Shown piece after piece: positions 31,255 through 54,618 of a DNA stretch of 64,000 nucleotides. Within the stretch, counting starts at the first letter, position 1. The number at the start of each line of letters is the position of its first letter. A program made the translations under genes and the position numbers. The notes below the pieces were generated by a model. That model had not been told where the DNA came from. It made no database searches and worked only from the letters and a program-made list of their open reading frames with translations. The DNA is from Capitulum mitella (taxonomy: Eukaryota; Arthropoda; Thecostraca; Pollicipedomorpha; Pollicipedidae): assembly GCA_030062745.1 (NCBI GenBank), contig CP099844.1, forward strand, positions 23,870,596-23,934,595, in the 5' to 3' direction.

Positions 31255-31424
31255 ATGCGGTGTCTGCTCGTCCTGCTGGCCTGCTGCGCCGGCCGCGCCG
31301 CCGCCGCCCCCTACAACGTCGAGCCCGATTACGCTGCCGCCATCCTCTCGCTGGGGGAGCTGGACCACGGCAAGCCGGACGCCTCGTACGCGTCCGCGGA
31401 AGGGACTCCGGCGCAACAGCAGAG
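31255..31424 (+). CDS. exon 1: signal peptide of TGF-beta-like protein
   Basis: The start ATG at 31255 has A at -3 and opens a classic signal peptide: MR, a leucine-rich core (CLLVLLACC), then GRAAAA with likely cleavage before APYNVEPD. The remainder (YAAAILSLGELDHGKPDASY) is an acidic, low-similarity linker. The donor AG|GTGAGA ends the exon in phase 2, completed to Arg57 by the first base of exon 2. GC-rich codons continue directly from the CpG island. Confidence 0.78.

Positions 31425-54618: not shown

Follow-up and report, generated by a model that had tools for sequence, protein, structure and literature searches.

A six-exon TGF-beta prodomain gene in Capitulum mitella with a stop codon in place of the growth factor

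Introduction

Can a TGF-beta prodomain be the entire product of a gene? Prodomains of this family have been studied mainly within ligand precursors, and the propeptides of activin A, myostatin and BMP9 each precede a cystine-knot ligand, a part that is absent from the product considered here. The question is raised by a locus of Capitulum mitella in which a preliminary description, made from the letters of the DNA, had read a signal peptide and a prodomain followed by a stop codon. The locus was analyzed within its window, the whole 64,000-nucleotide stretch of DNA. The same description held that in the known families the prodomain always comes before a ligand; this rule needs a qualifier, since birds have a splice isoform of myostatin, MSTN-B, that lacks the ligand and reportedly binds full-length myostatin and prevents it from being processed (PMC6770055).

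Results

Gene structure and product

Six plus-strand exons join in phase, as had been described, into an open frame of 394 residues that ends in a TGA at positions 54616-54618. The exons and the adjoining features are the following.

31255-31424, plus strand: exon 1, with the ATG, a signal-peptide-like N terminus (MRCLLVLLACCAGRAAAAP) and the phase-2 donor GAG/GTGAGA
49787-49995, plus strand: exon 2, with a straitjacket-like helix and a proline-rich loop (ERLEGIRQYILGMLNLPCVPRPPPYPA) and later VRLFNQLMDRL, read from PDB alignment to pro-TGF-beta1/2
51456-51619, plus strand: exon 3, the start of the arm domain, with AELRLYK
51886-51967, plus strand: exon 4, 82 bp and in frame, with the arm strand VRVSIYMY
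53811-54017, plus strand: exon 5, arm domain from HWITFDVRPAVRRW to NLGLRV, which matches Pfam TGFb_propeptide alone
54266-54618, plus strand: exon 6, the terminal exon, with the last prodomain strand HHFPVLDL, a linker, a furin-type/basic tract and the TGA
54531-54615, plus strand: His/Arg-rich tail, which carries RRRR, a furin consensus, and RRAR, the minimal motif
54619-64000, plus strand: the downstream 9.4 kb, in which a ligand domain was not found

The five introns measure 18362, 1460, 266, 1843 and 248 bases, in order, and all five have GT-AG borders; scored with a simple general matrix, their donors reach 9.8, 6.8, 4.7, 7.4 and 5.8 bits. There is no stop or frame break inside any exon. 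The N terminus of the product is hydrophobic and, by inspection of the sequence, signal-peptide-like; beyond the signal there are four cysteines (80, 127, 274 and 331), and the four sequons counted earlier lie at N107, N149, N213 and N275. Exon 1 is linked to exon 2, 18.4 kb away, only via phase, the signal-peptide-like start and the coding statistics; at the thresholds applied, it was the sole candidate between 20 and 49.7 kb to combine an ATG, a hydrophobic core and a phase-2 donor.

Two introns have features of their own. Intron 1 contains tandem arrays at 36700-36973, 43078-43274 and 35408-35546, made up of 33-base and 32-base GC-rich units plus a 139-base CT run. At intron 3, an exact direct repeat of 13 bases, CCAG/GTACTGGTC, lies across the donor and the acceptor (51616-51628 and 51882-51894), a signature in keeping with an intron gained through tandem duplication or through an insertion that duplicated its target site. 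A second copy of intron 3 was absent from the window, where the best match was 16 bases long and at chance level.

Coding potential

A codon-position model was trained on exons 2, 3 and 5, with exons 1, 4 and 6 left untrained, and exon scores were compared with those of stop-free stretches outside the exons; because the sampled stretches overlap, the resulting figures are ranks, not probabilities. Untrained exon 6 scored 31.9 bits, a value reached by none of 1389 non-exon stretches, the top one of which scored -8.6, and untrained exon 1 scored 11.2 bits, equaled by none of 6940. For the trained exons 2, 3 and 5, the stretches scoring as high numbered 0/4770, 0/7369 and 0/4868, respectively. 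Exon 4, also untrained and only 82 bp long, was not set apart by composition (288 of 18595 stretches equaled or exceeded it).

A second model, for which exons 1, 2, 3, 5 and 6 served as the training set, was used to scan the window for coding segments at a threshold of 8 bits. The top five segments lay in exons 1, 2, 3, 5 and 6 (40.6 to 18.0 bits), a partly circular result, as the same exons had been used in training; the sixth, at 17.2 bits, was the antisense of exon 6, and the best exon-free segment in the window lay on the minus strand at 22363-22464 (14.6 bits). Between 54619 and 64000 on the plus strand, the sole segment above 8 bits comprised nine codons (61337-61363, 8.1 bits); downstream on the minus strand there was an 11-codon segment (55231-55263, 9.9 bits). 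The best segment in the exon 4 region reached just 9.1 bits, so a short downstream exon might escape the same scan.

Other features of the window were recorded alongside. An inverted repeat occupies 23739-27010, with 24950-25616 pairing with 25793-26461 (95%) and 23739-24283 pairing with 26462-27010 (98%), and may be an element of the foldback type or else a palindrome produced by the assembly. A 118-residue frame on the minus strand at 48070-48426, which we take to resemble a reverse transcriptase fragment from a retroelement, Penelope-like or other, had no NCBIfam match.

Homology to TGF-beta prodomains

The assignment to the TGF-beta/BMP prodomains was borne out by profile and structure searches. 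Residues 54-262 matched Pfam TGFb_propeptide (PF00688) with 63 bits and an E value of 4.2e-17, against a cutoff of 25.8 bits. Among solved structures, taken up to an E value of 10, 15 distinct sequences matched, 14 of them being pro-TGF-beta1, 2 or 3 and one BMP10; the best match was pro-TGF-beta2 (E 2.6e-5), and pro-TGF-beta1 gave 3e-4. Exon 5 by itself scored 30 bits, above the family cutoff, and exon 3 by itself gave a marginal match (E 0.086); exons 1, 2, 4 and 6, taken singly, had no Pfam propeptide match. With exons 2, 3 and 5 joined and exons 1, 4 and 6 left out, the prodomain score was 47 bits, against 63 for the full protein. The homology support thus belongs to the joined gene and is strongest in exon 5. 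A scan of viral contigs that used only exon 5 yielded 13 pattern matches and no relatives. The arm domain (residues 159-256) also resembled the bacterial NCBIfam family DNRLRE at a subthreshold level (12.1 bits against a cutoff of 34, E 0.15), perhaps through a shared beta-sandwich fold.

Alignment was made to four human prodomains (TGF-beta1, GDF8, activin A and BMP9). The elements appear in the usual order: N-terminal helix, proline-rich loop, arm strands and HHFPVLDL. The helix ERLEGIRQYIL aligns with RIEAIRGQIL of human TGF-beta1, and HHFPVLDL aligns with the last strand in TGF-beta1, GDF8 and activin A but not in BMP9; it is followed by a 58-residue linker and then the basic tract. In blastp comparisons within this four-sequence set, the similarity was weak, with E values of 0.007 for BMP9, 0.013 for TGF-beta1, 0.027 for GDF8 and 0.12 for activin A. 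Candidate counterparts of the straitjacket helix and the latency lasso were seen by sequence alignment to pro-TGF-beta1/2 and to the four human prodomains. The inhibitory part of the TGF-beta and myostatin propeptides is the N-terminal helix with the loop that follows it, and this part appears by alignment to be present.

Search for a growth-factor ligand

The cystine-knot ligand family PF00019 was absent from the 394-residue protein by Pfam, and a Pfam scan of the three plus-strand frames of 54501-64000 returned no families, so that PF00019 was not found there either. A control scan of the same kind over 45001-54618 recovered exon 5 and not the remaining exons. In addition, a ligand profile was built from five human ligands and run against the window translated in all six frames, with stop-free segments of at least 15 residues, where its best E value was 0.95; tblastn of the same five ligands against the window gave 0.34 at best. 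In a hold-out control, the profile recovered five of five whole ligands and 10 of 10 half ligands with E values of 1.9e-8 or better, and no window segment bettered 0.53; this control consisted of human paralogues as protein segments, so a very divergent ligand, or one split over several short exons, could more easily be missed. The absence of a ligand from the window is well supported, in agreement with the original reading of a stop without a cystine knot, and a ligand in another frame further downstream was rejected, within the window, from the results of Pfam, the ligand profile and tblastn. The earlier suggestion to look for a downstream ligand exon was followed to position 64000, and none was found in the window.

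Exon 6 and the basic tail

Between 54476 and 54615, A/T bases by codon position numbered 4/46, 18/47 and 3/47 (p 4e-5). The His/Arg repeat in this section gives a period of three by itself; 54476-54530 was nonetheless periodic (p 0.012). In the 93 bases past the stop the corresponding counts were 9/31, 11/31 and 8/31 (p 0.70), the periodicity being gone, and read-through of the TGA was rejected on this ground and because the codon model scored the same frame beyond the stop at -6.6 bits. The strongest donors in exon 6 ahead of the stop scored 1.47 and 1.55 bits, compared with 4.7 to 9.8 for those used. Better donors occur past the stop, at 54704 (4.69) and 54720 (6.35), and these could be usable only for an intron in the 3' untranslated region or after read-through. 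From these genomic signs, exon 6 is a well-supported terminal exon. It weighs against reading the locus as a stand-alone gene that no canonical AATAAA occurs until 1.9 kb downstream. A near-perfect palindrome of 25 bases around a 3-base loop is located at 55810-55862, about 1.2 kb past the stop codon.

The tail contains the only R-x-[KR]-R motif of the protein, RRRR at residues 369-372, positioned after the last prodomain strand, and the product ends 22 residues beyond it. A furin-type motif so near the stop suggests that the ancestor was probably a full precursor with a ligand. The His/Arg-rich tail may serve furin cleavage or heparin binding.

Discussion

The Capitulum locus is a ligand-precursor architecture halted where the growth factor should start. 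In order of support, the readings of this observation are a stand-alone prodomain, a truncated precursor and a precursor with a distant ligand exon. To the leading one, a secreted stand-alone prodomain that acts in trans on ligands of other genes, we give an even chance. The truncation reading, which is unlikely, supposes that the ligand was lost recently by deletion or rearrangement, or is missing through an assembly error, and that the gene or a duplicate of it is becoming a pseudogene. The furin-type tract, with nothing to release, speaks for such a loss, as does the presence of rearranged sequence elsewhere in the window, such as the inverted repeat of about 3 kb at 23.7-27.0 kb. Against it, none of the six exons is interrupted and their splice signals are usable, the coding scores of exons 1 and 6 were obtained without training on them, a six-frame search of the window turned up no remnant of a ligand, and the window contains no runs of N. 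The intact frame had been offered as an argument against a recent dead gene; it does argue against old decay but is compatible with a ligand lost recently. Without a ligand, the furin-type tract has no evident use, and the growth factor may have been lost recently and neutrally; the data fit a loss long ago as well as a recent one.

The third reading, also improbable, is that of an ordinary full precursor whose ligand exon lies past position 64000 and is joined either from a nonconsensus donor within exon 6 or in transcripts that skip this exon, the short form then being an alternative isoform or an incomplete view. Ligands of the TGF-beta family can be held in separate exons, the furin-type motif stands shortly ahead of the stop, and only 9.4 kb separate the stop from the window end, compared with an intron 1 of 18.4 kb, which makes a far exon possible in this genome. 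This reading is countered by the donors ahead of the stop, all at or below 1.6 bits, and by coding periodicity that extends to the stop; moreover, exon 6 apparently holds the last prodomain strand, so that skipping it would break the prodomain. Very improbable is a splice error of our own at exon 6, with the exon 5 donor read through into the start of a ligand, where MDCNGTSKLCCSAFIFFELELCWPD resembles the N terminus of the activin ligand. With the human activin A ligand (INHBA) as tblastn query, a 20-bit match to 53999-54073 points that way, but its E value of 1.4 is at chance level, the frame stops after about 26 residues without a furin site or the remaining knot, and the spliced phase of exon 6 scores as strongly coding; this ligand start was dismissed on the E value and the early stop.

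Under the stand-alone reading, a full ligand precursor would have lost its growth-factor part, leaving a prodomain gene whose product would run from signal peptide through straitjacket-like helix and loop, arm domain and last strand to a basic tract and the stop. The free prodomain is predicted to be secreted, and it might pair with, or wrap around, related ligands encoded elsewhere, keeping them latent or aiding their folding and maturation; the His/Arg-rich tail could anchor it on heparan sulphate, or furin could trim the tail. Secretion, the ligand partner, dimerization, latency or chaperone action and the role of the tail are thus predicted properties of the product, which may be a working stand-alone antagonist or chaperone. 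By analogy, the role of antagonist is favored over that of chaperone. A trans-acting prodomain is favored by the presence of the inhibitory helix and loop together with the precedents of MSTN-B, the myostatin propeptide and the BMP2 prodomain. The myostatin propeptide or its pieces reportedly suppress the ligand (PMC6472743, PMC4520684), and the BMP2 prodomain, attached to a ligand in chimeras and coexpression, is reported to promote BMP6 dimerization and cleavage (PMC11735993).

The product shares its domain order and furin-type end with the propeptides of activin A, myostatin and BMP9. With the latency-associated peptide of TGF-beta1/2 it appears by alignment to share the straitjacket-like helix, proline-rich loop, arm domain and last strand; by the same alignment it is without the N-terminal association cysteine and the beta-8 CxC pair, and it is without the ligand. 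Fly Maverick, Dawdle, Activin and Myoglianin likewise have TGF-beta/activin-like prodomains of an invertebrate, but these are ligand bearing, and a beta-8 CxxC is reported for Maverick, Dawdle and Activin (PMC7017013); compared by this description, the fly motif has no counterpart among the cysteines of the Capitulum product. The closest likeness in kind is to avian MSTN-B, as a prodomain-derived product without a ligand. MSTN-B is a splice isoform of the ligand gene and comprises its first 129 residues only (PMC6770055), whereas the Capitulum locus is a separate gene model that encodes a whole prodomain with the last strand and the furin-type tract.

Possible, though held more tentatively than action in trans, is a dedicated and conserved free-prodomain gene whose product, with its basic tail, would form a separate latency or chaperone subunit controlling the place and timing of ligand activity. 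No paper on a dedicated prodomain-only gene was found among those listed, a scope mostly outside subscription journals and hence weak evidence of absence. Ligand-less isoforms of myostatin are already known, and what is new here would be a dedicated gene for the prodomain alone. If the stand-alone reading is true, latency and folding would no longer be tied to ligand dosage in such a gene, and its product would be a natural antagonist or chaperone, analogous to MSTN-B for myostatin.
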